Assembly: GCF_024169925.1 (NCBI RefSeq)
Contig: NZ_JALJXF010000001.1
Coordinates: 1,432,001 to 1,496,000, forward strand
Length of the DNA: 64,000 nucleotides
Direction of reading: 5' to 3'
Origin: Methylorubrum extorquens
Lineage (GTDB): Bacteria > Pseudomonadota > Alphaproteobacteria > Rhizobiales > Beijerinckiaceae
Each line of letters starts with the position of its first letter. Position 1 is the stretch's first letter. Below the pieces are notes generated by a model that had not been told where the DNA came from, did not search any database, and worked only from the letters and a program-made list of their open reading frames with translations. The translations under genes were made by a program, and so were the position numbers. Shown here piece after piece: positions 1,298 to 21,891 of this stretch.

Positions 1298-2212
1298 TCA
1301 GAGACCCTGCGCGTCGAGCCAGCGGTTCAGCACCTGCGCGCCGACCGAGGCACGTGGCCCGAGCATCGGGCAGTGGCCGGCGCCCGCGATGCTGTCGAGG
1401 TCGGCACCGTGATAGAGCGCCGTGCGCGCTGCTGCAGCCGAATCGACGAGGCGGTCGTCCGATCCGTGCAGGACGAGCGTGGGAAGCCCGATGCCCCAGG
1501 CAGGCAGTACCGGCAGCGGGATGTAGGCCTGGGCGAGGCTCGTGAACGAGCCGAGGCACAAAGTCAGGAAGGTGTCCGTGCCGATGCGCGCGGCGTAAGC
1601 TGCGGCGACGGCCGGCTCGATGCCCGTGCCGAACATCGCGTCGTGGTGGTCGAAATCCGGCGTCCGGCCGAACTGTCCCGCCAGCGCCTCGAGCCACAAC
1701 GACAGCCCGAGTTGCGGGCCGGCCAGCGCCAGCCCCTCGGGTGGCAGCGATCCGACTAGGACGAGACCGCGCAAGGCGAGGTGGCCGGCGAGGATCGACG
1801 TCAACAGATGCTGCGCGAGGAGACCGCCGATCGAGTGGGCGACGAGGACGGGCGGCTCGGGCATCGCCCGGATCGCGAGGGCGAGATCCTCGGCAAAATC
1901 GTGCAGTCCGGTCCAGGGGAGGGCGGCACGACCCTCGCTGGTGCCGTGGCCGCGCAGAGAGACGGCGGCGACGAGGCGCCCCGTCTCGCCGAGCGCGTGC
2001 ATCCAAGTCTCCTCCCAGCACCACGCCCCGGTGAAGGCGCCGTGGACCAGCAGGACCGGAGGCAGGCCGGAGGGCCGCTCCGGGTGACGGATCAGGACCT
2101 CCAGCGACGGGCCGGACGGCCGGGTCAGTCGGCCGGGCGTGATTGGTACCGTCCCCTCCATCGTGGACGCGGCGGAGCGTGCCGGTGAACCGGCGGCCTC
2201 AATCTCGAACAT
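1298..2212 (-). CDS. alpha/beta hydrolase
   Basis: This is a 304-residue alpha/beta-hydrolase. The oxyanion strand is LLVHGAFTGAW near residue 55. The nucleophile elbow is AHSIGG (Ser), the acid is in HGSDDRLV, and the final His is in GAGHCPML near the C-terminus, so the triad is complete. No signal peptide is visible, so it is probably cytoplasmic. The frame stays open up to 2548, but that extension is Arg/Pro-rich shadow sequence lying under the neighbouring gene. The ATG at 2212 (MFEIEA) sits 11 bp after the stop of the phasin-hydrolase and is preferred; the ATG at 2161 is an alternative. It probably forms an operon with that gene. The substrate is unknown; an ester, lactone or hydroxyacyl oligomer would suit the context. 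Confidence 0.82.
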   Translation of the reverse strand: MFEIEAAGSPARSAASTMEGTVPITPGRLTRPSGPSLEVLIRHPERPSGLPPVLLVHGAFTGAWCWEETWMHALGETGRLVAAVSLRGHGTSEGRAALPWTGLHDFAEDLALAIRAMPEPPVLVAHSIGGLLAQHLLTSILAGHLALRGLVLVGSLPPEGLALAGPQLGLSLWLEALAGQFGRTPDFDHHDAMFGTGIEPAVAAAYAARIGTDTFLTLCLGSFTSLAQAYIPLPVLPAWGIGLPTLVLHGSDDRLVDSAAAARTALYHGADLDSIAGAGHCPMLGPRASVGAQVLNRWLDAQGL

Positions 2213-2223
2213 CGCAGAGGGCC

Positions 2224-3558
2224 TTATCGCGTCGAGCCGAGCCAATCGGTGACGATCCGGATCTGGCCCACGTCGAGGAGCGCCGGGGCATGGCCGCAGC
2301 CGGGAATCGTGACGAGGCGCGCCCTCGGGCCGCGGCTGGTCATCTCCGCCGCGGTCTCCGCCAACAGCAGTTCCGATGTCTCGCCCCGCAGGAGCAGGAC
2401 GGGGCAGGTGATTGCGTCCCAGGTCTCCCAGAGGCTGACATCGTAGACGCGGCCGGGGCGGAAGGCGTTGCCGATGCCGGGATCGTAGTGCGGCCGGAAG
2501 CCACCGCTCCCGTCCGGTACGATGCTGTGCTCGGTGAGGTGGCGCCACTGCGCCTCGGTGAGAGGGCCGAACGGCGCGTGAATCCGGCGCAGCCGCGCCT
2601 CGGCCTCCTCAAGGCTCGCGTAGCGCGCCGGCGCTTCGAGCAGGTTGTTGCCGATGGCCCGCACCGGGGCATGCGGCAGGAACGGCCCGATATCGTTGAC
2701 GACGAGGCGCCGGATCGGGGTGCCTTCGGCGGCGGCGAGCGCCATGCCGATCATCCCGCCCATCGAGGTGCCGACCCAATCGACCTGCTCGACGCCGAGA
2801 TGCGCGATCAGCAGCGCCATGTCGCTCGCGTACTGGGGCAGGCCGTACGCCTCCGGATCCTTCAGCCATCCGCTATGCCCGCGCCCGACGATGTCCGGAC
2901 AGACGACGCGGTAGCCGCGTGCGGCGAGCGCAGGGGCGAGAGCATCGAAATCGCGTCCCTGGCGGGTCAGACCGTGGACGCAGACGACGACCTCGGACGC
3001 ATTCGGCTCCCCCCACTCGACATAGGCGATCTCGTGGAAGCGGCCCTGTGAGAGGCCGCGGGTGCGGCGGCGGCGGAAGGGGCGGTCGACGGCCGGGCTC
3101 TCCTCAAGCGACGTCGCCCTGGTCCAGGGCGAAACCCAGGAACGGGTCTCGCCGCCCAGCATCGCGCCGCCCGCCGCGTGATGGAGATCGATGATCTGCC
3201 GGGTCGAGCGTTTCGATTGCTCACGCAGATACGCCGCCTGGATCGCGAAGAACTCACCGGGACCCGAGGCCTGCAGCAGCCGCTCGGCGCAGTCGAAACC
3301 GGCCTTGAGGTTGGTGTCGGAGGCGATCATCACCTGCTGGGCGATCCCGCGCAGACTGCTCCAGCCACGGCCGGTGCCGCCCGAAGCCGCGTGCCCGATC
3401 TCGGAACGGCCCATCGACGATTCGAGCATCTGGACCGCCCCCTCGGCCGCTTCGACAATCCGCCGATAGGCAGAACGGGTCGCCCTCAGTTGCTGGAGGG
3501 CCAACCGGCCCCCGAGAGCCCGATGCGCCTTCTCGGGGGCTTCATTCGTCACCGTCAT
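2224..3558 (-). CDS. phasin-domain / alpha/beta-hydrolase fusion protein
   Basis: The protein has 444 residues and two clear parts. Residues about 25-130 are helical and match the Phasin_2 pattern: a run FDCAERLLQASGPGEFFAIQ followed by AYLREQSKRSTRQ, like the granule-binding helices of PHA phasins. Residues about 160-444 are an alpha/beta hydrolase with CVHGLTRQG, the elbow GTSMGG (Ser) and a late GCGHAPALL (His). Phasins coat polyhydroxyalkanoate granules, so I infer a hydrolase tethered to the granule, for example an intracellular PHA or oligomer hydrolase or a thioesterase. The linker is Arg-rich (RPFRRRRTRG). A palindrome shared with the acyl-CoA dehydrogenase operon lies about 100 bp upstream of the start. 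Both domain calls rest on motif reading, not on a profile search. Confidence 0.82.
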   Translation of the reverse strand: MTVTNEAPEKAHRALGGRLALQQLRATRSAYRRIVEAAEGAVQMLESSMGRSEIGHAASGGTGRGWSSLRGIAQQVMIASDTNLKAGFDCAERLLQASGPGEFFAIQAAYLREQSKRSTRQIIDLHHAAGGAMLGGETRSWVSPWTRATSLEESPAVDRPFRRRRTRGLSQGRFHEIAYVEWGEPNASEVVVCVHGLTRQGRDFDALAPALAARGYRVVCPDIVGRGHSGWLKDPEAYGLPQYASDMALLIAHLGVEQVDWVGTSMGGMIGMALAAAEGTPIRRLVVNDIGPFLPHAPVRAIGNNLLEAPARYASLEEAEARLRRIHAPFGPLTEAQWRHLTEHSIVPDGSGGFRPHYDPGIGNAFRPGRVYDVSLWETWDAITCPVLLLRGETSELLLAETAAEMTSRGPRARLVTIPGCGHAPALLDVGQIRIVTDWLGSTR

Positions 3559-3653
3559 GCCAATCCTGCCGTGACGCCGCAGGCCGTTTCCGCCCGCCGA
3601 TCTCGACGCGCGCGGATGGCTGTGCCCCGGCGGGGTCGTTACAAACGCCCGAA

Positions 3654-3675
3654 AAAATCGAGCGAGCGCTCGCTT
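3654..3675. promoter_or_regulatory. candidate operator palindrome upstream of the phasin-hydrolase
   Basis: A perfect 14-bp palindrome (AGCGAGC/GCTCGCT, 3661-3674) is flanked by an A-run on the left and a T-run on the right. The 19-bp string at 3654-3672 is identical to 27196-27214, upstream of the acyl-CoA dehydrogenase. GAGCG/CGCTC-type palindromes are common for TetR-family regulators, and a TetR gene lies beside the second copy. The A/T runs could also let the hairpin act as a terminator, but no gene ends here. Confidence 0.6.
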
Positions 3676-3830
3676 TTTGTCTAGCGCTGGGCTATCGTCC
3701 TTGCAACCGGAGTGTTCCTTCGATGCCCAGGCACGGCATGAAACCTCACGAGCACGACGCGTCGACGGCGCGGGCGGATGGCTCGTGCCGGACGGGCGGG
3801 ATCGTGTGGCGGAGGGGAGAGCGGCTGGCG

Positions 3831-4541
3831 TCAGCGCAGGCGGCGCGCCAGCGAGCGCTTCCGGCTCTCCTCGTCAGCTCCCCTGCGCAGCGCCTCGAGC
3901 TTGGACACGAACTTGATCGAAGCGCGTCGGATGTGCTCGCGCCCGAGGCGCTCAGCGGCCTCGGGATCGTTGCCGATGATGGCATCGAGAATGGCCGCGT
4001 GCTCATCCCAGACCCGGGCATCGACACCGCGATCGACCCGCAACACCTCACCCATGATCCGGCGCATGTGATGCCAGTAAGGGCGGGCCGCCTCCTCAAT
4101 CGCGCGATTCCTCGACAGCGCATTGACGAACTGGTGAAAAGCGATGTCCTCCGCGATCTGTTCAGCGACCGCGCCGCTGGCCACCGCCGCTCGACCGCGC
4201 TCGAGGATCTCGCGACCGGCCCCGGCCTCTCGGGGCGAGCGCTCGGCTGCCAGACGGCAGGCGAGACCGTCGAGCACTTCGCGGATCTCGTAGGCGCTTC
4301 GCACGAAGTCGATATCGAGTTCGGCCACGACGACACCGCGCTTGGGCGCGTTGATGACGAAGCCGCGGTCGCGCAGCAGCGCCAGGGCCTGCTGCACCGG
4401 CTGGCGCGAGACGTCGTAGGCCTCGGCGAGTTCATCCTGGATGAGGCGGGTGTTCGCCGGCAGCGTCCCGTCACAGATCTCGGAAAGAATCCGATCGTAG
4501 ATCTGTCCGACGAGCGTCGGCACCAATGTCACACTTTGCAT
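3831..4541 (-). CDS. GntR-family transcriptional regulator, FCD (FadR-like) subgroup
   Basis: The protein has 236 residues. The N-terminal winged helix-turn-helix (about 10-75) shows the typical TRLIQDELAEAYDVSRQPVQQAL pattern in two stretches, followed by the wing GFVINAPKRG. The helical FCD domain (about 85-220) keeps the metal-binding positions DIAFHQFV, a central histidine pair (WHHM) and EHAAILDAI. It is divergent from aldA across a 443-bp AT-rich gap and is the natural candidate to control it, with an organic acid as effector. The frame extends to a TTG at 4562, but the ATG at 4541 begins where homology would be expected. Start choice is moderately certain. Confidence 0.88.
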   Translation of the reverse strand: MQSVTLVPTLVGQIYDRILSEICDGTLPANTRLIQDELAEAYDVSRQPVQQALALLRDRGFVINAPKRGVVVAELDIDFVRSAYEIREVLDGLACRLAAERSPREAGAGREILERGRAAVASGAVAEQIAEDIAFHQFVNALSRNRAIEEAARPYWHHMRRIMGEVLRVDRGVDARVWDEHAAILDAIIGNDPEAAERLGREHIRRASIKFVSKLEALRRGADEESRKRSLARRLR

Positions 4542-4593
4542 CCAAACCGAACCGGTTCTCAAACTCTGTCGTTCGACGCGCTATCCCGCCCAC

Positions 4594-4633
4594 TTGCAGT
4601 AAAGTTCAAATTCGGTATACGAATTTCGAATTC
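4594..4633 (+). promoter_or_regulatory. AT-rich candidate promoter/operator in the gntR-aldA divergent gap
   Basis: The 4542-4984 gap contains no supported gene. Its most distinctive part is an AT-rich island in otherwise GC-rich DNA. TTGCAG (4594-4599) lies 16 bp before TATACG (4616-4621), a sigma-70-like pair. The second box is inside TTCGGTATACGAA (4611-4623), a near-palindrome of the GTATAC type bound by many FCD-GntR proteins, and TTCGAATTC follows at 4625-4633. I infer an operator overlapping the promoter. The 5' leader to aldA would be about 360 nt, which is long. Confidence 0.35.
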
Positions 4634-4984: not shown

Positions 4985-6424
4985 TTGAACGCGCCCCTTT
5001 CGAACTACATCAACGGAAAGCTTATCGCGAGCAAGTCGTTCGATATGCTGCCGGTCTTCAACCCGTCGACCGGCCGCGTCATCTCCGAAATGCCGGTCTC
5101 GACCAGCGACATGGTCGAAGAAGCCGTGTCGGCGGCGCGCAAGGCGCAGGTTTCCTGGGGACAACGTCCCGCCATTCAGCGCGCCAACGTGCTACGCGCG
5201 ATCTCGGCACGGATCCGCGAGCGGGGCGAGCCGATAGCCCGGATCATCTCGGAGGAGCAGGGCAAGCTTCTCGGCCTCGCCAAGGTCGAGGTCGCTTTTG
5301 CTGCCGACTACCTCGACTACATGGCCGAGTGGGCCCGCCGCATCGAGGGCGAGATCATCGAGAGCGACCGGCCGGGCGAGAACATCTTCCTGTTCCGCAA
5401 GCCCGTCGGCGTCGTCGGCGCGATCCTGCCCTGGAACTTCCCGTTCTTCCTCATCGTGCGCAAGCTCGGACCCGCGCTGGTGACCGGCAACAGCATCGTC
5501 ATCAAGCCGAGCGAGGAAACACCCCTCAACGCGGCGGCCTTCATCGAGTTGCTCGACGGCCTCGACATCCCCGAGGGCCTGATCAACTTCGTCTACGGCA
5601 CCGGCGCGGGCGTCGGCGAGGCGATCTGCGCCCATCCCCACGTCGACCTGATCAGCTTCACCGGCAGCGCCGCGACGGGCGCGCGGATCATGGCGACGGC
5701 GGCGCGCAACATCACCAAGGTCAACCTCGAACTCGGCGGCAAGGCCCCGGCGATCGTCCTCAAGGATGCCGACCTCGACAAGGCCGCCAAGGCGGTGGCC
5801 GCCTCGCGCACGCTCAATAGCGGCCAGGTCTGCAACGCGGCCGAGCGCGTCTATGTCGAACGGCAGGTCGCCGAGGAATTCGGAGCCCGCGTCACCGAGG
5901 AGATGAAGCGGATCCGCGTCGGCGATCCGCTCGGCGGCTCCGAGGTGGAGATGGGGCCGATGATCAACCAGGCCGGCGTCCGAAAGGTCGAGGAACTGGT
6001 GCAGTCGGCGCTGAGCAGCGGCGCCACGGTGACGACCGGTGGCCGGGGCACGGCCGACGAGGGCAAGGGCACCTTCTACGAGCCGACCGTGCTGACAGGC
6101 TGCCATCAGGACATGGACGTGATGCGCAAGGAGATCTTCGGTCCGGTTCTGCCCATCATGGCCGTCGACAGTCTGGAGGAGGCGATCAGCCTTGCCAACG
6201 ACACCGAGTACGGCCTGACATCATCGATCTACACCGAAAGCCTGTCCAGCGCCCTGAAGGCGAGCCGCGAGCTGAGCTTCGGCGAGACCTACGTCAACCG
6301 CGAGAACTTCGAGGCGATGCAGGGATTCCATGCCGGGAACCGGAAGTCCGGTATCGGCGGCGCGGATGGCAAGCACGGGCTCTACGAGTACACGAGCACG
6401 CATGTTGTATATATCCAGACCTAA
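4985..6424 (+). CDS. aldA: aldehyde dehydrogenase, lactaldehyde/glycolaldehyde dehydrogenase (AldA) type
   Basis: The protein has 479 residues, the usual family length, and matches E. coli AldA closely from memory over its whole length: WARRIEGEII near residue 115, PWNFPFFLI, the NAD loop FTGSAATG, the general base in LELGGKAP, the catalytic Cys in NSGQVCNAAE, and the C-terminal ENFEAMQGFHAG. It oxidises small 2-hydroxy aldehydes such as lactaldehyde or glycolaldehyde to acids with NAD+ in the cytoplasm. The start is TTG, chosen because GGGAGGA sits 4 bp upstream and the N-terminus MNAPLSNYINGK aligns with the family. It is followed 94 bp later by an outer-membrane channel gene. Family membership is firm; the exact substrate is inferred. 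Confidence 0.93.
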   Translation: MNAPLSNYINGKLIASKSFDMLPVFNPSTGRVISEMPVSTSDMVEEAVSAARKAQVSWGQRPAIQRANVLRAISARIRERGEPIARIISEEQGKLLGLAKVEVAFAADYLDYMAEWARRIEGEIIESDRPGENIFLFRKPVGVVGAILPWNFPFFLIVRKLGPALVTGNSIVIKPSEETPLNAAAFIELLDGLDIPEGLINFVYGTGAGVGEAICAHPHVDLISFTGSAATGARIMATAARNITKVNLELGGKAPAIVLKDADLDKAAKAVAASRTLNSGQVCNAAERVYVERQVAEEFGARVTEEMKRIRVGDPLGGSEVEMGPMINQAGVRKVEELVQSALSSGATVTTGGRGTADEGKGTFYEPTVLTGCHQDMDVMRKEIFGPVLPIMAVDSLEEAISLANDTEYGLTSSIYTESLSSALKASRELSFGETYVNRENFEAMQGFHAGNRKSGIGGADGKHGLYEYTSTHVVYIQT

Positions 6425-7453: not shown

Positions 7454-7667
7454 ATCTTAAATAGATGAGAAGTCCGGGCGCTTTATTAATAAGCATCCGG
7501 ATTCGGCTGAAGCATTCACCATAGATTGCCGGCCGGTCATGCCAATATGCGGCGCTTCACGGGGATCTCACGAACGGCCCGGTCCCTCCGGGCCCCTCCG
7601 CCCGACGCCTGGGCGGGGGCCGTGGCATCCGAAACGCCTCGTTTGGCGAGCAGAGGAAACGAACAGG

Positions 7668-8234
7668 ATGTCGGCTTCGAAAAATCCGAAGATCATGATC
7701 GATCGCCGCACCGCGCTTCTCGGCGTGGCCGGCTGCTGCCTGGCGGCCGGCCCGGTCTGGGCGGGTCCCGAAGAGGATCTGCCGGCCAAAGGCGACACAC
7801 TCGTGTTCGACGACGGCCCGCTCGAGGGAAAGCCCGTCACGCTCGACGCGATCAAGGAGGGTGAACCCGCCCTCGCGATCGCCGTCGATACGGCCACCGG
7901 CACCAAGAAGACCGAGTCGCGCTTCGCCAAGATCGTCCTCGCGCGCGTGCCGGAGGCCGACATCGACGAGGACACGAAGCCCTTCACGGCGGACGGCGTC
8001 ATCGCCCTCTCGGCGATCTGCACGCACCAGGGCTGCTCCGTCACCGGCTGGAACGCCGAGAACAAATCCCTGCTCTGTTTCTGCCACGGCTCGGAATTCG
8101 TGCCGGGGGAGGGCGGGCGCGTCGAAAAGGGGCCGGCGCGCAAGCGCATCCCCGTCCTGCCGATCGCCAAGGGCGAGAAGGGCGAAGTCGTCATCACCGA
8201 AGGCTTCCGCGGCAAGCCCGGCCCCGGCGCCTGA
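7668..8234 (+). CDS. exported Rieske [2Fe-2S] protein
   Basis: The protein has 188 residues. DRRTALLG followed by a hydrophobic stretch and VWAG is a twin-arginine (Tat) signal, so the protein is probably folded with its cluster and exported. The Rieske motif is complete: Cys118-x-His120, then Cys137-x-x-His140, with the extra disulfide cysteines Cys123 and Cys139 (CTHQGC and CFCHGS), which is typical of high-potential Rieske centres. The frame is open to 7539, but that stretch is not coding-like; the ATG at 7668 follows an AGAGGAAACG ribosome site. It sits 162 bp before the PQQ dehydrogenase and may be its periplasmic electron acceptor, in place of or besides a cytochrome c. That partnership is inferred. 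Confidence 0.85.
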   Translation: MSASKNPKIMIDRRTALLGVAGCCLAAGPVWAGPEEDLPAKGDTLVFDDGPLEGKPVTLDAIKEGEPALAIAVDTATGTKKTESRFAKIVLARVPEADIDEDTKPFTADGVIALSAICTHQGCSVTGWNAENKSLLCFCHGSEFVPGEGGRVEKGPARKRIPVLPIAKGEKGEVVITEGFRGKPGPGA

Positions 8235-8396
8235 CGGCCTGACGGCCTGACACGCGGGGATACACCCGTCCCAACCTCCGCATCGAGATACGGACGGACC
8301 GCTGCGCGGCGGTCTCGACCGGACGAGCACAAGGAGATGCCGCCGCCGCCGCCGTGCGGGCATTTCGGAAAACCAAAAAGATTCGGGAGAGCAACG

Positions 8397-10205
8397 ATGT
8401 CCAAGACCAACCGTCGAACACCACCCGCTCAGGCGCTCGCGCCGCTGCTCGGCTCCGCGCTTCTGGCCTTCGCCGCCGTGTCGGGCTCGCAGGCGGCCGA
8501 AGGCATCAAGGACTACAAGCCCGTCACCGACGAGCGCCTTGCCAACCCCGAGCCCGAGAACTGGCTGCAATACCGCGGCAACTATGCCGGCTGGGGCTAT
8601 AGCCCGCTCGACAAGATCAACGCCGAGAACGTCAAGCGGCTCGTACCCGCCTGGACGCTCTCGACCGGCGTCATGGACGGCCACCAATCGCCGCCGACCG
8701 TCAACAACGGCATCATGTTCATCTCGACGCCGCAGGCGCAGGTGCTCGCGGTCAACGCCCGCGACGGGCAGGTTCTGTGGCGCTACCAGAAGGATCTGCC
8801 GCCCGAGCTGTTCCAGCTCCATCCGACCAACCGCGGCGTCGGGCTCTACGGCGACAAGGTCTATGTCGCGACCACCGACGCCTGCGTCGTCGCGCTCGAA
8901 GCCGCGACCGGCAAGGCGAAGTGGACGAAGTGCGTCGCCAAGTGGAAGGAGGGCTACTACATGACCCTCTCGCCGCTCGTGGCGAAGGGCAAGGTCGTAG
9001 TCGGCGTCTCCGGCGGCGAGTTCGGCATCCGCGGCTTCATCACCGCGCTCGACGCCGAGACCGGCGCGGAAGCCTGGAAGACCTACACCGTCGCGGGACC
9101 GGAGGATCCCGGCTTCCAGACCTGGAAGGGCGATTCCTGGAAGACCGGCGGCTCGCCGGTCTGGATCCAGGGCAATTACGACCCCAAGAGTGAGACCGCC
9201 TATTTCGGCACCGGCAACGGTGGGCCGTGGATGCCGGATACGCGGCCGGGCGACAACCTGTACTCGACCTCGACCGTCGCGCTCGACATCAACACCGGCA
9301 AGATCAAGGGCCATCACCAGTATCACTACAACGATGCTTGGGACTGGGACGAAGTCTCGGCGCCGCTGCTGATTGACATCAAGCGCGACGGCCGCACCCT
9401 TCCCGGCCTCGTCCATGCCGGCCGCAACGGCTACCTCTGGACGCTGGAGCGGACTGCGGACGGACCGATCAAGTTCGTCGATGCCAAGCCCTTCGTCTAT
9501 CAGGACGTGTTCTCGGGCGTCGATCCGAAGACCGGTCGGCCGACCTACAAGGAAGACAAGGTTCCGACCACCGGCAAGAAGGCCGAATTCTGCCCGAGCC
9601 TGTGGGGTGGCAAGGATTGGCCGCCGGAGGCCTACAACCCCAAGACCGGCCTGCTCTACATCCCCGCCAACGACAACCTCTGCGCCGTGATCGCCGGCGT
9701 GCCGGTCAAGGCCCGCAAGCCGGGTGAACTCTACATCGGCGTGCCGGTGGAGGAGATTCTTTCAAGCCTGCATGTCCGCAAGGACGTCGACGTGAGCAAG
9801 CCGGTCAACATCGGTCAGCTCCAGGCCTGGGACATGAACACCGGCCAGAAGGTGTGGCAGCACGACTTCATGGACTCGGCCACCTGGGGCCCGGTCCTGA
9901 CGACGGGCAGCGGGCTCGTCTTCACCGGCGGCACCAGCGACCGCAAGTTCCGCGCCTTCGACGGCAAGACCGGCAAGGTGGTGTGGGAGATGCGGCTGAA
10001 TTCCGGCGTCATCGGCGTGCCCTCCTCCTACATGGTCGATGGCGTCCAATACGTCGCGGTCCAGTCCGGCTGGGGCGTCGATGCCGACCGTATGCTCGGC
10101 GGTATCAACAACGCCCTGCCCGAAGATCGCCGGGTGCGCATGGCCCCGCAGGGCGGCGTCGTGTGGGTGTTCAAGGTGATGGACCAGGAGGTCTCGGCCA
10201 AATGA
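8397..10205 (+). CDS. PQQ-dependent alcohol dehydrogenase with lanthanide-type metal site
   Basis: The protein has 602 residues with a Sec signal peptide (cleavage near SQAAEG) and an eight-bladed quinoprotein propeller with repeated GxxxALDxxTG-type W motifs. Metal/PQQ ligands are visible: Glu208 (GVSGGEFG), Asn274 (FGTGNGG) and catalytic Asp316 in WDWDE, followed two residues later by Asp318. An Asp at that +2 position marks lanthanide-dependent XoxF/ExaF-type enzymes, whereas calcium MxaF has Ala. The adjacent-cysteine disulfide usual near residue 135 is absent: the NRGVGLYG segment is preceded by LFQLHPT. Start choice: ATG 8397 follows a GGGAGAG site. It is co-transcribed with the Rieske gene and overlaps the next gene by ATGA. 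The substrate is not predictable; there is no C-terminal haem c domain. Confidence 0.92.
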   Translation: MSKTNRRTPPAQALAPLLGSALLAFAAVSGSQAAEGIKDYKPVTDERLANPEPENWLQYRGNYAGWGYSPLDKINAENVKRLVPAWTLSTGVMDGHQSPPTVNNGIMFISTPQAQVLAVNARDGQVLWRYQKDLPPELFQLHPTNRGVGLYGDKVYVATTDACVVALEAATGKAKWTKCVAKWKEGYYMTLSPLVAKGKVVVGVSGGEFGIRGFITALDAETGAEAWKTYTVAGPEDPGFQTWKGDSWKTGGSPVWIQGNYDPKSETAYFGTGNGGPWMPDTRPGDNLYSTSTVALDINTGKIKGHHQYHYNDAWDWDEVSAPLLIDIKRDGRTLPGLVHAGRNGYLWTLERTADGPIKFVDAKPFVYQDVFSGVDPKTGRPTYKEDKVPTTGKKAEFCPSLWGGKDWPPEAYNPKTGLLYIPANDNLCAVIAGVPVKARKPGELYIGVPVEEILSSLHVRKDVDVSKPVNIGQLQAWDMNTGQKVWQHDFMDSATWGPVLTTGSGLVFTGGTSDRKFRAFDGKTGKVVWEMRLNSGVIGVPSSYMVDGVQYVAVQSGWGVDADRMLGGINNALPEDRRVRMAPQGGVVWVFKVMDQEVSAK

Positions 10206-16607: not shown

Positions 16608-18350
16608 ATGGTCAGCCCCATCCTCGGCCCGATGCCCATCAGCACCGACAGCGTCGCCGCGGTGGTCGCGCGCTCCCTGAAGGCGCGCGGCGTCGATCGG
16701 GTCTTCGCGCTCTGCGGCGGGCACATCATGGCCCTGTGGATGCGCCTCGACGCCGAGGGCATCCGCATCATCGACGTGCGCGACGAGCGCGCCGCCGTGC
16801 ATATGGCCCAGGCGCATGCGGAGGTGACCGGCGGGCTCGGGGTCGCCCTCGTCACCGCCGGCCCCGGCATGACCAACGCCATCACCGGCATCGCCAACGC
16901 CCACGTCTCCCGCGCGCCGGTGCTGGTCCTGTCGGGCACCAACACCCGGCCGCAGGAGAACCGCGGCGGGTTGCAGGATCTCGACCATACGCATCTGGTG
17001 CGCACCATCACCCGCTACGCCCGCACCGTGCGCGAGCCGGCGCTGGCGCTGGCCGAACTCGACGAGGCGATCGCACGGGCGCTGGGGGAGGGCGGTGAGC
17101 CCGGCCCCTCCTACATCGACTTCCCCGCCGACACGATGCGCGGCCTCGTGCCGAAGCCCTTGCAGATGGCCGAGCATCTCGAATCGAAGCCCCGCGTCGC
17201 GGTACGGCCCGATCCCGAGCGGATCGCGGCGGCGGTCGATCTCCTTTGGTCGGCCCAGCGCGTCCTCGTCATCTCAGGCCGCGGTGCCCGCGGTGCCGGC
17301 CCCGAACTCGTGACGCTGCTCGACCGCCTCGGCGCGGTCTATCTCGATACCGGCGAGAGCCGCGGCCTCGTGCCCGACGCCCACCCTTCCGTCGTCGGCG
17401 CCATGCGCGGCGCGGTGATGACCGACGCAGACGTGGTCCTCACCGTCGGCCGCCGGCTCGACTTCCAACTCGCCTTCGGTTCGCCCGCGATTTTCGGCAA
17501 CGCGAAGTTCGTGCGTCTGGCCGACACCCCGGCAGAGCTACGCGACAACCGCCGCGGCGCCGTCGAAATCCTGTCCGACGCCGCCGCCGCCCTGAGGGCC
17601 ATCGTCGAGACCGCGGGCAACCGCGAGAGCGGCGTCGACCGCGAATGGGCGGGCAAGCTCCGCGCCGGCCACGAGCAGCGCGCTTCCAAGCTCAAGCAGA
17701 CCATGGCCACCGCCCCCGCCGGCTCGGACGGGCGCTTGCATCCGAACCGTGTCATCGCCGCGCTTCAGGAGGCGATCGACGACAACTCCATCGTCGTCAC
17801 CGATGGCGGCGATTTCCTCAGCTTTGCCCGCATCGGCCTCTCGGCGCCGATCATGCTCGATCCCGGCCCGTTCGGCTGCATCGGTGTCGGCGTGCCCTAC
17901 GGCATCGCCGCGAGCCTCGCACATCCCGACCGCACCACGCTGGTGGCGACCGGCGACGGCTCCTTCGGCTTCAACGCGATCGAACTCGACACCGCCGCCC
18001 GGCACAAGGCGCCGGTCCTGATCGTCGTGGCCAATAACGGTGCGTGGCAGATCGAGGTCCACGACCAGACCGTCACCCATGGCCGGGTGATCGGCACCAA
18101 GCTCGCCTTCAGCGACTACGCGGCGATGGCTCGCGCGCTCGGCATGCACGGCGAACGGGTCGAGACCGAAGCGGAACTCGGGCCGGCGATTCAGCGCGCA
18201 CTCGCCAACCGCCCCGCGCTGCTCGACGTAGTGGTCACGCCCGAGGCCGTCTCCTCCGACGCCAAGACGGGGCTGGCCTGGGTGCCGGACCTCCAGCCGC
18301 TCGCCGCCTGGGACGAGGCCGAGCGCAAGTGGCGCGCGGGCGAAGCGTGA
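16608..18350 (+). CDS. thiamine-diphosphate-dependent enzyme, acetolactate-synthase-like
   Basis: The 580-residue protein has the three-domain layout of ThDP decarboxylases/ligases: an N-terminal Pyr domain with the activating Glu60 (DVRDERAAVH), a middle domain (about 190-330) and a PP domain with the ThDP/Mg motif GDGSFGFNAIELDTAARHKA through NN near residue 470. A GGAGG ribosome site precedes ATG 16608. Related enzymes include acetolactate synthase, benzaldehyde lyase and oxalyl-CoA decarboxylase / 2-hydroxyacyl-CoA lyase. The last pair is attractive here because the gene is flanked by acyl-CoA ligases and its TGATG junction couples it to the next one, but this is inference. True IlvB is unlikely since no small subunit follows. 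Confidence 0.85.
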   Translation: MVSPILGPMPISTDSVAAVVARSLKARGVDRVFALCGGHIMALWMRLDAEGIRIIDVRDERAAVHMAQAHAEVTGGLGVALVTAGPGMTNAITGIANAHVSRAPVLVLSGTNTRPQENRGGLQDLDHTHLVRTITRYARTVREPALALAELDEAIARALGEGGEPGPSYIDFPADTMRGLVPKPLQMAEHLESKPRVAVRPDPERIAAAVDLLWSAQRVLVISGRGARGAGPELVTLLDRLGAVYLDTGESRGLVPDAHPSVVGAMRGAVMTDADVVLTVGRRLDFQLAFGSPAIFGNAKFVRLADTPAELRDNRRGAVEILSDAAAALRAIVETAGNRESGVDREWAGKLRAGHEQRASKLKQTMATAPAGSDGRLHPNRVIAALQEAIDDNSIVVTDGGDFLSFARIGLSAPIMLDPGPFGCIGVGVPYGIAASLAHPDRTTLVATGDGSFGFNAIELDTAARHKAPVLIVVANNGAWQIEVHDQTVTHGRVIGTKLAFSDYAAMARALGMHGERVETEAELGPAIQRALANRPALLDVVVTPEAVSSDAKTGLAWVPDLQPLAAWDEAERKWRAGEA

Positions 18351-20008
18351 TGAGCGCCGCCCTCCCGCTCCCCGTGCAAGGAGAACCGCACCTGTTCGAG
18401 GCTGGCCTCGAGCGCCGCGCGGCGAATTACGTGCCGCTGACGCCCGCGAGCTTCCTAGCGAACGCCGCCGCCTCCTACGGCGGCAAGGTCGCGGTGATCG
18501 ACGGTGCGCGGCGGCTCACCTACCGCGAGCTCGACACCCGCTGCCGACGCCTCGCCTCGGCCCTGCGGGGGAGGGGTGTCAGCCCTCTCGACACCGTGGC
18601 GATCCTCGCCCTGAACACGCCCGAGATGATCGAGGCGCATTACGCCGTCCCGATGGCGGGCGCCGTGCTCAACCCCCTCAACACCCGCCTCGACGCGGCG
18701 ACCATCGCCTTCTCGCTCGACCACGGCCGGGCCCGCGTGCTCCTCGTCGACGGCGAACTAGCGCCGCTGGCGCGAGAGGCGTTGCGACTCGTGCACAACC
18801 GCCCCCTCGTCATCGATATCGCAGCGCCCGGCGGGGAGGGCACCGCGATCGGCGACCTCGCCTACGAGGCGCTGCTCGAAGAGGGCAACCCGGACTTGGC
18901 CTGGGAGGGGCCGCCGGACGAGTGGCAGTCCCTCTGCCTGCTCTACACCTCGGGCACCACCGGCGATCCGAAGGGCGTCGTCTACAGCCACCGCGGCGCC
19001 TACCTGCAGGCGCTCGGCAACGCGGTCACCTTCGGGCTCAACCCCGACAGCGTCTATCTCTGGACGCTGCCGATGTTCCACTGCAACGGCTGGTCCTATC
19101 CGTGGGCGGTCGTGGCGGCTGGCGGCACCCAGGTCTGCCTGCGCAAGGTCGAGCCGGCAGCGATCTTCCGGCTCATCGCCGAGCACCGGGTCACGCATCT
19201 GTGCGGCGCGCCGATCGTGCTCTCGATGATCGCCCACGCGCCGCGAGAGGTGCGGGTGCCGTTCTCGCACGCGGTGGTGCGCTGCGCGACCGGGGGCGCC
19301 GCGCCCTCCTCGACGATCCTGCGCACCATGGAGGAGCTGGGTTTCAAGGTCACCCATCTCTACGGCGCCACCGAGTGCTACGGCCCCGGCACCGCCTCGC
19401 TGTTTCAGCCCAGTTGGGCGGCACTTCCGACCGAGGCACGCTACGCCCGCATGGCCCGCCAGGGCGTAGCGCTGACGACGCTAGGCTCCGTGATGGTCGC
19501 CGACCCGGAGACGATGCAGCCCGTCCCGCAGGACGGCGCGACGCTCGGCGAGATCATGATGCGCGGTAACACCGTGATGAAGGGCTATCTCGCCAACCCG
19601 GCAGCGACTGCGGATACGCTCGCGGACGGCTGGTACCGCACCGGCGATCTCGCCGTCTGGCACGCCGACGGGGCGGTCGAGATCAAGGACCGCTCGAAGG
19701 ACATCATCATCTCCGGCGGCGAGAATATCTCCAGCCTGGAACTGGAGGAGGTGCTGACCCGCCACCCCGCCGTGATGCTGGCCGCCGTCGTCGCCCGGCC
19801 CGACGCGACCTGGGGCGAGACGCCCTGCGCCTTCCTCGAACTCAAGCCCGGCGCGGACACCCCCACGGACGAAGAGGTGATCGCCTTCTGCCGGGAGCGG
19901 ATGGCGCGGTTCAAAGTGCCCAAGGCGGTAGTGTTCGGGCCGCTGCCGAAGACCTCGACGGGCAAGATCCAGAAGTTCGTCCTCCGCGAGCAGGCGCGAT
20001 CGCTATGA
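18350..20008 (+). CDS. AMP-forming acyl-CoA synthetase (candidate LvaE-like)
   Basis: The protein has 552 residues. Motifs are LLYTSGTTGDPKG (about 199), LPMFHCNGWSYPW, YGATECYG, the hinge YRTGDLAVWHADGAVEIKDRSKD, GGENISSLELEE, and KTSTGKIQK with the catalytic Lys. The HCNGW segment is typical of the short/medium-chain and aromatic FadD3-like synthetases. The start codon overlaps the stop of the ThDP gene and its end overlaps phaE, so ThDP enzyme, synthetase and PhaE are translationally linked. In the Lva pathway of Pseudomonas putida a CoA synthetase activates levulinate; this gene and the ligase at 13911 are the candidates here. Confidence 0.92.
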   Translation: MSAALPLPVQGEPHLFEAGLERRAANYVPLTPASFLANAAASYGGKVAVIDGARRLTYRELDTRCRRLASALRGRGVSPLDTVAILALNTPEMIEAHYAVPMAGAVLNPLNTRLDAATIAFSLDHGRARVLLVDGELAPLAREALRLVHNRPLVIDIAAPGGEGTAIGDLAYEALLEEGNPDLAWEGPPDEWQSLCLLYTSGTTGDPKGVVYSHRGAYLQALGNAVTFGLNPDSVYLWTLPMFHCNGWSYPWAVVAAGGTQVCLRKVEPAAIFRLIAEHRVTHLCGAPIVLSMIAHAPREVRVPFSHAVVRCATGGAAPSSTILRTMEELGFKVTHLYGATECYGPGTASLFQPSWAALPTEARYARMARQGVALTTLGSVMVADPETMQPVPQDGATLGEIMMRGNTVMKGYLANPAATADTLADGWYRTGDLAVWHADGAVEIKDRSKDIIISGGENISSLELEEVLTRHPAVMLAAVVARPDATWGETPCAFLELKPGADTPTDEEVIAFCRERMARFKVPKAVVFGPLPKTSTGKIQKFVLREQARSL

Positions 20009-20766
20009 CAGGCACCCGGACAGGCACCCGAGAGAACGGTCCGGACGGGACCGGCACGCAAGCGTCCGGCGGGTCCGACCCGTTCGGGATGTTCGGCGCC
20101 TCGCTCAACGCCTCGATGGAGGCGATGACCGCGTGGTCGCGAACGTGGCAATCGCTGCTGGAAGCGCGCGGCGGCCCCTCCGCCTCGCTGATGATGGGGG
20201 CGCTCGCCGACCCGACGCAGGGGCTCCAGAGCGTGGCGCCACTGATGGAGGAGTTCCGGCGGGCACTGGCGCTGCCGCGCTTCGCCGACCTGCCGGCTCC
20301 GAACGGCGCGCTGCTGCCCTCGCCCGAAGCTGCCGTCGATTTGATGATGCTCGTTCAGCAATACCTCGCGGCGGTGATGCCGGTCTGGGTCAAGGCCGGC
20401 GAGAACTTCCAGGCCGAGGTCGAGGCGCTCCGGGCCCGCGGCGAGACCGCCGACCTTCTGGCCGACGGCATGGACATCTGGAATGGCGTGCTCGACCGCA
20501 CCTTGATGGAGTTCAACCGCTCCCAGGATTTCGCTGCCCTACAGCAGCGGATGCTGAGGCTGGCGATGCAGCAGCGCCAGGATCTGCGCCGCCGCGCCGA
20601 GATGGCGGCGGAGGCGATCGACATGCCGACCCGCACCGAGATGCTCGACGTCTACGCCCGGCTGCATGGCCTGATGCGCGAGGTGCACAGCCTACGTCGC
20701 GAGGTGCGGGCGCTGAAGGCAGGGGGCGCCAGCAGCGCCGACCACGCTGCGCCGGACGCTCCTTGA
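20005..20766 (+). CDS. phaE: class III PHA synthase subunit PhaE
   Basis: The 253-residue protein overlaps the synthetase stop by ATGA. It shows the low-complexity, helical character of PhaE: WSRTWQSLLEA near residue 45, a central helix-rich part, and the diagnostic C-terminus DMPTRTEMLDVYARLHGLMR followed by EVHSLRREVRALK. PhaE binds PhaC and activates polymerisation of (R)-hydroxyacyl-CoA. phaC follows 36 bp later, supporting the call. Ribosome site and start are clear. Confidence 0.87.
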   Translation: MTGTRTGTRENGPDGTGTQASGGSDPFGMFGASLNASMEAMTAWSRTWQSLLEARGGPSASLMMGALADPTQGLQSVAPLMEEFRRALALPRFADLPAPNGALLPSPEAAVDLMMLVQQYLAAVMPVWVKAGENFQAEVEALRARGETADLLADGMDIWNGVLDRTLMEFNRSQDFAALQQRMLRLAMQQRQDLRRRAEMAAEAIDMPTRTEMLDVYARLHGLMREVHSLRREVRALKAGGASSADHAAPDAP

Positions 20767-20802
20767 GTTTCGTGAAACCGCACGGGTTACGAGGAGGCTG
20801 GC

Positions 20803-21891
20803 ATGGCGCAGGGCGCATCCATTCCGGGACTGAAGGAACTGGCGGAGTTCTCCCAGCGGGCGGCGACGGCAGCGGCGCAGCTCGGCGCGATCCGCGACGA
20901 AGATGTCGACGTCGCCGCCACACCGCGGGAGAAGATCGCGCAGATCAACGGGCGCACGCTCTACCGGATCGCGGCCGGCACGCCGAGCCGGGTCGAGACA
21001 CCGATCCTCGTGCTCTACGCCATGGTCGGAAGCTGGCAGATCCTCGACCTGCAGCCGGACCGCTCGTTCCTGCGCAGCCTCGCCGAGGCCGGCAGCACGG
21101 TCTACGTCGTCGATTGGGGCCACCCGACGCCGGCCGACCAGTTCGACGATTTCAGCGACCTCGTCGACATCTACATCGATGGTTTCGTCGAGGCGATCCG
21201 CGACCGGCACGGCATCGAGCAGGTCAACCTGCTCGGCATCTGCCAGGGCGGGGTGCTGTCGCTCTGTTACAGCGCCCTGCACGGCGAGAAGATCCGCAAC
21301 CTCATCACCTGCGTCACGCCCGTCGATTTCCACGCCGACCGCTGCAACGAGCAGGTTGAGCGCGGTTTCATGAATGTCTGGACCCGCAATCTGGAGGCGC
21401 GGGACATCGACCGGATGATCGACACCATCGGCAACGTGCCCGGTGGCGTCGGTGGGGTGCTGTTCTCGATGATGACACCGTTCCGCAGCCTCGCGAAGTA
21501 CAACCTCACCCTGATGGAGGCGGGGCAGGACCGCGACAAGCTGCTGAATTTCCTGCGCATGGAGAAGTGGCTCGCCGACCGGCCGGACCATACCGGCGCC
21601 TCGGCCCGGCAATGGCTGAAGGATCTCTACCAGGACAACCGACTCTATAGCGGCACCTTCGAGATCGGCGGCCGGACGGTGGATCTGGGGGCAATCACCA
21701 TGCCGGTGCTCAACTTCTACACCGAGACCGACCACATCATCCCGGCCCCCGCCAGCAAGGCGATGGCCCAGGTGATCGGCGCGAAGGACTACACCGAGGC
21801 CCCGATCACCGGGGGCCATATCGGCGTGTTCGTCAGCCGCGGCCAAGCCAAGTTCAGCGACCGCATCCTCGGCTGGTTGGAGACCCGCTGA
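20803..21891 (+). CDS. phaC: class III poly(R)-hydroxyalkanoate synthase PhaC
   Basis: The 362-residue length is that of class III PhaC (class I/II are near 560-600). The lipase-like box is GICQGG with nucleophile Cys147; Asp310 (YTETDHI) and His339 (GGHIGVF) complete the triad. A strong GAGGAGG site precedes the ATG. With PhaE it polymerises hydroxyacyl-CoAs into granules. Class III enzymes mainly take short-chain monomers, and several also accept 4-hydroxyacyl-CoA, which fits the 4-hydroxyacyl genes on the opposite strand. The linkage to a CoA-ligase operon rather than to phaAB is uncommon. Confidence 0.95.
   Translation: MAQGASIPGLKELAEFSQRAATAAAQLGAIRDEDVDVAATPREKIAQINGRTLYRIAAGTPSRVETPILVLYAMVGSWQILDLQPDRSFLRSLAEAGSTVYVVDWGHPTPADQFDDFSDLVDIYIDGFVEAIRDRHGIEQVNLLGICQGGVLSLCYSALHGEKIRNLITCVTPVDFHADRCNEQVERGFMNVWTRNLEARDIDRMIDTIGNVPGGVGGVLFSMMTPFRSLAKYNLTLMEAGQDRDKLLNFLRMEKWLADRPDHTGASARQWLKDLYQDNRLYSGTFEIGGRTVDLGAITMPVLNFYTETDHIIPAPASKAMAQVIGAKDYTEAPITGGHIGVFVSRGQAKFSDRILGWLETR

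Follow-up and report, generated by a model that had tools for sequence, protein, structure and literature searches.

A natural phasin–alpha/beta-hydrolase fusion in Methylorubrum extorquens and its proposed role at polyhydroxyalkanoate granules

The stretch of Methylorubrum extorquens DNA analyzed here (64,000 nucleotides, hereafter the window) encodes a single protein in which a phasin domain is joined to an alpha/beta hydrolase. We interpret it as a natural phasin–serine esterase fusion that arose once and that would be tethered to polyhydroxyalkanoate (PHA) granules, cutting chain ends and oligomers there as an accessory to the PhaEC system, and we assign this reading a probability of about 0.68. 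The gene and its parts lie on the minus strand:

2224..3558, minus strand: phasin–alpha/beta-hydrolase fusion gene (ATG start, 444 aa; open reading frame and Pfam, with a full-length relative in the metagenome-assembled genome (MAG) M12)
3564..3567, minus strand: AGGA, 5 nt 5' of the ATG and likely the ribosome binding site (AGGAT precedes the ATG in M12 too)
3160..3543, minus strand: phasin domain (residues 6-133), predicted to form three long helices (Phasin_2 and structure model)
3079..3159, minus strand: flexible linker, approximately residues 134-160 (pLDDT <50 over 128-157; in-frame 11-residue length difference from M12)
2227..3078, minus strand: alpha/beta hydrolase domain, residues 161-444 (Abhydrolase_1, model, nearest folds 4ose and 3bwx)

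Both domains are genuine, with a modest match on the phasin side. When the whole protein is searched against Pfam, Phasin_2 (PF09361) matches residues 70-123 at 26.9 bits (E 5.6e-6; gathering score 24.9), rising to as much as 30.3 bits when residues 1-154 are scanned alone, and Abhydrolase_1 (PF00561) matches residues 190-426 at 83.7 bits, above its cut-off of 25.8. A preliminary description of the gene had proposed a Phasin_2-like N-terminus and profile checks of the two halves; the searches bear this out, with a phasin match above the gathering score inside residues 1-140 and a hydrolase match in the remainder. The NCBIfam phasin_2 model TIGR01985 matches residues 67-132 at 33.8 bits (E 4e-8), far under its equivalog cut-off of 99.7 bits, and we do not claim this narrower name for the phasin part. 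In alignment, the fused phasin lacks a stretch of ~40 residues that is present in many split phasins of the genus (a gap between residues 54 and 56).

Structure prediction, which the preliminary description had also called for, yields a hydrolase fold and three long helices in the phasin part. In a first AlphaFold2 model, built from a mixed alignment (A3), the hydrolase (residues 161-444) has block means of 88-98, residues 128-157 have pLDDT <50 and the N-terminus is helical with low confidence; this poor phasin confidence is due to the phasin rows having been aligned over hydrolase columns. A second AlphaFold2 model, from phasin-only rows (A4), gives residues 1-154 a mean pLDDT of 81.2 with helices at 6-51, 62-95 and 100-133. 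Amphipathicity clearly exceeds that of shuffled sequences only for helix 1 (0.485 vs 0.257; 3 of 500 shuffles), helices 2 and 3 giving P 0.148 and 0.072. The nearest solved folds of the hydrolase belong to two uncharacterised hydrolases, 4ose (Rickettsia typhi) and 3bwx (Novosphingobium), followed by the thioesterase domain of a polyketide synthase. No solved phasin matching the phasin part was found by PDB sequence or fold search, a result of little weight for a helical domain.

The residues expected to carry out catalysis were counted on 53 aligned rows of the hydrolase alone:

2764..2766, minus strand: Ser265, nucleophile (GTSMGG), invariant in 53/53 rows
2692..2694, minus strand: Asp289, putative alternative catalytic acid (NDIGP), invariant in 53/53 rows
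2371..2373, minus strand: Glu396, candidate catalytic acid, Glu/Asp in 52/53 rows
2290..2292, minus strand: His423, catalytic base, invariant in 53/53 rows

His195 and Gly196 are likewise invariant, and position 396 is Glu in 24 rows, Asp in 28 and Thr in 1. Judged by conservation, the assignment of Ser265 as nucleophile and His423 as base is clear. The complete hydrolase triad of the preliminary description therefore holds for these two members, whereas the acid could be either Glu396 or Asp289.

A fused frame that occurs this rarely could result from two genes having been joined by mistake during sequencing or assembly. At a threshold of E 1e-30, a search of 111 genomes of the genus (Methylobacterium) finds the hydrolase in 42, and a match over residues 1-444 occurs in only two of them, the window genome (G000) and M12 (G112, a Beijerinckiaceae MAG), the other 40 carrying two genes; this rarity is what an artefact would have in its favor. 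Against it, two separate assemblies share the fusion: their proteins are 77% identical, both start with MTVT, both genes have AGGAT before the start, and the linkers differ in alignment by 11 residues in whole codons. For this one pair of sequences, dN/dS (Nei-Gojobori) is 0.26 in the phasin core, 0.46 in the linker and 0.135 in the hydrolase, and on these ratios both domains are under purifying selection. Assembly error is ruled out by the M12 relative, the in-frame linker indels and the selection on both parts, and we leave next to no probability for a frame created by mistake. The tree built from 53 hydrolase domains places the window and M12 sequences as sisters (100/99) within the group formed by the genus (99/95); the rows just outside them, G088 and G092, are both split genes, and their joining is weakly supported (88/56). 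The simplest account of this topology would be one gene fusion on the window/M12 branch.

By its distribution, the fusion, present in two of 42 genomes, is a rare form derived from two adjacent genes that are conserved as a pair. All 42 hydrolase-bearing genomes of the genus have a phasin either fused to the hydrolase (2) or encoded directly upstream of it (40), and the 39 upstream open reading frames compared with Phasin_2 all reach at least E 0.01, a threshold on E rather than on the gathering score. At 36 of the 40 split loci, the stop codon of the phasin gene overlaps a possible start codon of the hydrolase gene in the sequence GTGA; G088, G092, G013 and G035 lack this overlap. Translational coupling of the pair is accordingly likely rather than proven, because any codon with a final G that happens to precede TGA also produces GTGA.

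Outside the genus, the hydrolase appears mostly without this partner. Of 397 genomes sampled from the order, 20 have relatives at E 1e-50, as do 42 of 398 sampled from the phylum. Of the 80 outside loci, covered for 1.5 to 6 kb on each side so that a phasin farther away could escape, two have a phasin-profile match beside the hydrolase: one in Bosea, where the phasin is part of the profile, and one in G341. No link to PHA was found among the neighbors of an Azospirillum hydrolase (one locus, read by eye) or of the betaproteobacterial ones. At 34 loci outside the genus the upstream open reading frames fall into one family, of which the example at L098, ComEC-like by eye, ends just before a stand-alone hydrolase; these clusters come from a crude gene caller that also picked up antisense frames, and they are used here only for this frame, which was noted by eye ahead of some betaproteobacterial relatives. 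A search of plasmids for DNA matching window positions 1500-4600 found none.

The breadth of the family to which the nearest structures point, together with the 78 of 80 outside loci that lack a phasin match, would suit an enzyme whose substrate is a soluble ester or a CoA thioester from the pathway around PhaEC, represented in the window by a 2-hydroxyacyl-CoA lyase and an acyl-CoA synthetase, its phasin part merely parking it on the granule. We think this improbable, since the hydrolase is paired with a phasin in every hydrolase-bearing genome of the genus and those same genomes encode PhaEC. That the two are separate neighboring genes in nearly all relatives and one protein here suggests that the enzyme works at the granule surface.

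A candidate for a functional counterpart comes from what is probably Cupriavidus. A close relative of the hydrolase, one per genome, is present in 59 of 60 genomes of the genus taken for Cupriavidus, among which we take G918 to be C. necator N-1 (chromosome 1), G919 to be C. metallidurans CH34 and G940 to be C. taiwanensis (chromosome 1); phaC1 is presumably H16_A1437. The hydrolase domain of the fusion is 46% identical over 280 columns to the G918 protein. In the literature, H16_A1335 is named as PhaY2, a 3HB-oligomer hydrolase (PMC3430594, PMC3734047, PMC11767486), and H16_A1381 is phaP1 (PMC11767486). In G940, the best phasin is 46.7 kb and the best class I PhaC 102.5 kb away from the hydrolase. 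These distances fit the position of PhaY2, because A1381 and A1437 are 46 and 102 tags away from A1335, at ~1 kb per tag. The fit is rougher in G918 (68 kb to the phasin and 127 kb to PhaC); the PhaC distance is 101 kb in G897 and 99 kb in G932, and in G919 PhaC is 198 kb from the hydrolase and the map position of PhaY2 is not matched. The G918-type protein, probably from Cupriavidus, may thus correspond to PhaY2, an identification based on map position, replicon lengths and locus tags.

By profile, the fusion enzyme is not a catalogued intracellular depolymerase. Its score against NF050089 (intracellular scl-PHA depolymerase) is 59.6 bits, far under the cut-off of 300, and the best 25 of the 33 families that match the protein do not include TIGR01849 (PHB depolymerase PhaZ); membership of either the PhaZ or the i-nPHAscl depolymerases is rejected, the match being missing among these families or the score too low. 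Three other loci of the same genome exceed the TIGR01849 cut-off, the fusion gene not being among them, and three further Phasin_2 loci exceed theirs, one of them with a stop within the match. Given these three other PhaZ loci and three other Phasin_2 loci, the fusion would be an accessory enzyme.

The main rival reading, in our analysis, is that of a self-activated depolymerase, in which the phasin part would be both an anchor and an ApdA-like activator and the fused enzyme would degrade native granules itself. Activation by a phasin has a precedent in Rhodospirillum rubrum, where PhaZ1 is described as hydrolysing native granules efficiently in vitro only if the phasin ApdA, an absolute requirement, is present (PMC5658603), and the weak resemblance of the fusion enzyme to NF050089 points the same way. 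The profile results and the three PhaZ loci elsewhere in the genome argue against it, however, as do the PhaY-type enzymes, which one report describes as cutting the 3HB oligomers that arise during mobilisation (PMC3556143). We consider self-activation unlikely and prefer an enzyme that acts on chain ends and oligomers.

The fusion gene shares the window with a class III PHA synthase, about 17 kb separating it from PhaC. A lyase, a synthetase, PhaE and PhaC form one gene run at 16608-21891 on the plus strand, which is also present in M12 (L334) with 72-92% identity:

16608..18350, plus strand: 2-hydroxyacyl-CoA lyase (NF058623 812 bits, cut-off 600; PDB 7pt1 E 1.1e-182)
18374..20008, plus strand: acyl-CoA synthetase (NF006020 814 bits, cut-off 677; the longest open reading frame starts at 18044, so the start is provisional)
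20005..20766, plus strand: PHA synthase subunit PhaE (PF09712 55.1 bits, cut-off 25.7; TIGR01834 35.1 bits, below its cut-off of 154.95)
20803..21891, plus strand: class III PHA synthase subunit PhaC (TIGR01836 322 bits, below its cut-off of 365)

The make-up of this run suggests either a polyester with 2-hydroxyacyl units or the breakdown of 2-hydroxyacids beside PHA synthesis. When the window's own genome is searched for class I PhaC, one class I synthase exceeds the cut-off; another match, inside the window, is the class III PhaC.

Across the genus, homologues of the class III PhaC at E 1e-40 or better occur in 42 of the 111 genomes, exactly the 42 that bear the hydrolase; this co-presence was counted without a species tree, and common descent could explain part of it. 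Among the 15 PhaC loci examined from the 41 other genomes, three (G035, G092 and G088) have the hydrolase in a shared gene cluster, at 3 to 4 kb from PhaC, and the other 12 show no hydrolase in the DNA covered around PhaC. Outside the genus, such a cluster is seen twice, in one gene order. A plasmid of Bosea vaviloviae carries, in order, an Fe-alcohol dehydrogenase, phaE, phaC, a CoA-transferase, phaP, an alpha/beta hydrolase and acs, with a 4-base overlap between the phasin and hydrolase genes, and G341, from the order of the window genome, has phaE, phaC, a CoA-transferase, a phasin and the hydrolase in a row (PhaC over its cut-off; PhaE at 44.5 bits and the phasin at 25.9 bits, both below their cut-offs of 154.95 and 30.2). 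A relative of the hydrolase on the Caballeronia plasmid pSBC1_3 (L160) has as neighbors a CoA-transferase, an alcohol dehydrogenase and an enzyme similar to acetolactate synthase, a set resembling class III PHA clusters, and PhaEC was not seen in the stretch covered.

The other class III loci of the genus comprise an acetolactate-synthase-like TPP enzyme, an Fe-alcohol dehydrogenase, PhaE, PhaC, a CoA-transferase and an aldehyde dehydrogenase. This order was read at positions 4271-13177 of L339 and is similar in L331-L333, L335-L338 and L340-L344, with profiles run on the L339 and L331 proteins only. In L339, the Fe-alcohol dehydrogenase scores 255.8 bits to 4-hydroxybutyrate dehydrogenase, below the cut-off of 500, and the aldehyde dehydrogenase is above the cut-off of TIGR01780 (succinate-semialdehyde dehydrogenase), making a 4-hydroxybutyrate polymer operon possible for clusters of this type. 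A further and tentative proposal, which we rate as doubtful, is that Methylobacterium has a second polyester system, based on the class III synthase and with a monomer other than 3-hydroxybutyrate, and that the fusion would be its self-anchoring enzyme for mobilisation. The monomer would be a 2-hydroxyacyl unit in the fused lineage, where the 2-hydroxyacyl-CoA lyase and the acyl-CoA synthetase adjoin PhaEC, or 4-hydroxybutyrate in the remaining genomes, where PhaEC is surrounded by the Fe-alcohol dehydrogenase, the CoA-transferase and the succinate-semialdehyde dehydrogenase just described.

Closer to the fusion gene, the window contains the following:

1-1242: 3-hydroxyacyl-CoA dehydrogenase, flanking the fusion
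1298..2212, minus strand: second alpha/beta hydrolase, 304 aa (Pfam on 1298-2191), beginning 11 nt past the fusion stop
3831-4562: GntR/FCD regulator, flanking the fusion
4985-6424: aldehyde dehydrogenase, flanking the fusion
7539-8234: Rieske protein, flanking the fusion
8337-10205: PQQ alcohol dehydrogenase, flanking the fusion

The second hydrolase is likely to be in the same operon as the fusion gene. Its relatives lie just downstream in M12 (77%) and in M. trifolii (51%), and weaker ones (32-33%) are found near the gene pair in G092 and G035.

We propose the following mechanism for the preferred reading, that of a granule-tethered esterase. The fusion would have arisen once, in the window/M12 lineage, from an adjacent and probably translationally coupled pair. 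The phasin helices would hold the protein on the surface of the PHA granule, and the flexible linker would let the serine hydrolase swing to chain ends and released oligomers, the ester bonds of which are its presumed substrate. The covalent link would keep one enzyme per anchor and so raise the local concentration of the enzyme. The protein may thus serve as an accessory mobilisation enzyme, tied above all to the class III PhaEC and working beside the class I synthase and the three PhaZ.

The preliminary description had regarded the union of a phasin with a hydrolase as unusual, and this judgment stands: the best matches in the open-licence PubMed Central literature include no natural fusion of a phasin with an enzyme. 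In the excerpted text of a phasin review, engineered enzyme fusions are mentioned and a natural one was not seen (PMC5658603). The protein described here is a natural covalent tie between a granule coat domain and an esterase, and the split hydrolase partners encoded beside phasin genes are therefore predicted to work at granules too. It offers a ready-made anchor-linker-enzyme design, akin to the artificial ones made in biotechnology. It also draws attention to a set of class III PHA genes in Methylobacterium, possibly one that has yet to be described.

Each of the known systems shares one aspect of the fusion. PhaY2, or PhaZc, of Cupriavidus necator (H16_A1335) would resemble it through the 46% identity between the fusion hydrolase and the G918 protein at a roughly matching map position, and differs in having no phasin domain; PhaZc reportedly resides mostly in the cytosol, a small share of it being bound to granules. 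PhaZ1, the partner of ApdA, belongs to a hydrolase family other than that of the fusion enzyme. The PhaY2 homologue of Azohydromonas is given as an 870-bp alpha/beta hydrolase gene (PMC11767486). Stand-alone Phasin_2 phasins (PF09361) have in common with the fusion the family profile that its N-terminal domain matches, but the fusion carries an enzyme, whereas phasins are described in a review as having no catalytic function (PMC5658603). The ApdA-PhaZ1 pair is alike in that a phasin and a hydrolase cooperate at the granule (PMC5658603) and unlike in consisting of two separate proteins. Finally, the engineered PhaP1-enzyme fusions, such as that with D-hydantoinase, likewise use a phasin as the granule anchor for an enzyme (PMC5658603); they are man-made, whereas the fusion in the window occurs naturally and carries an enzyme for which the granule itself is the probable target.
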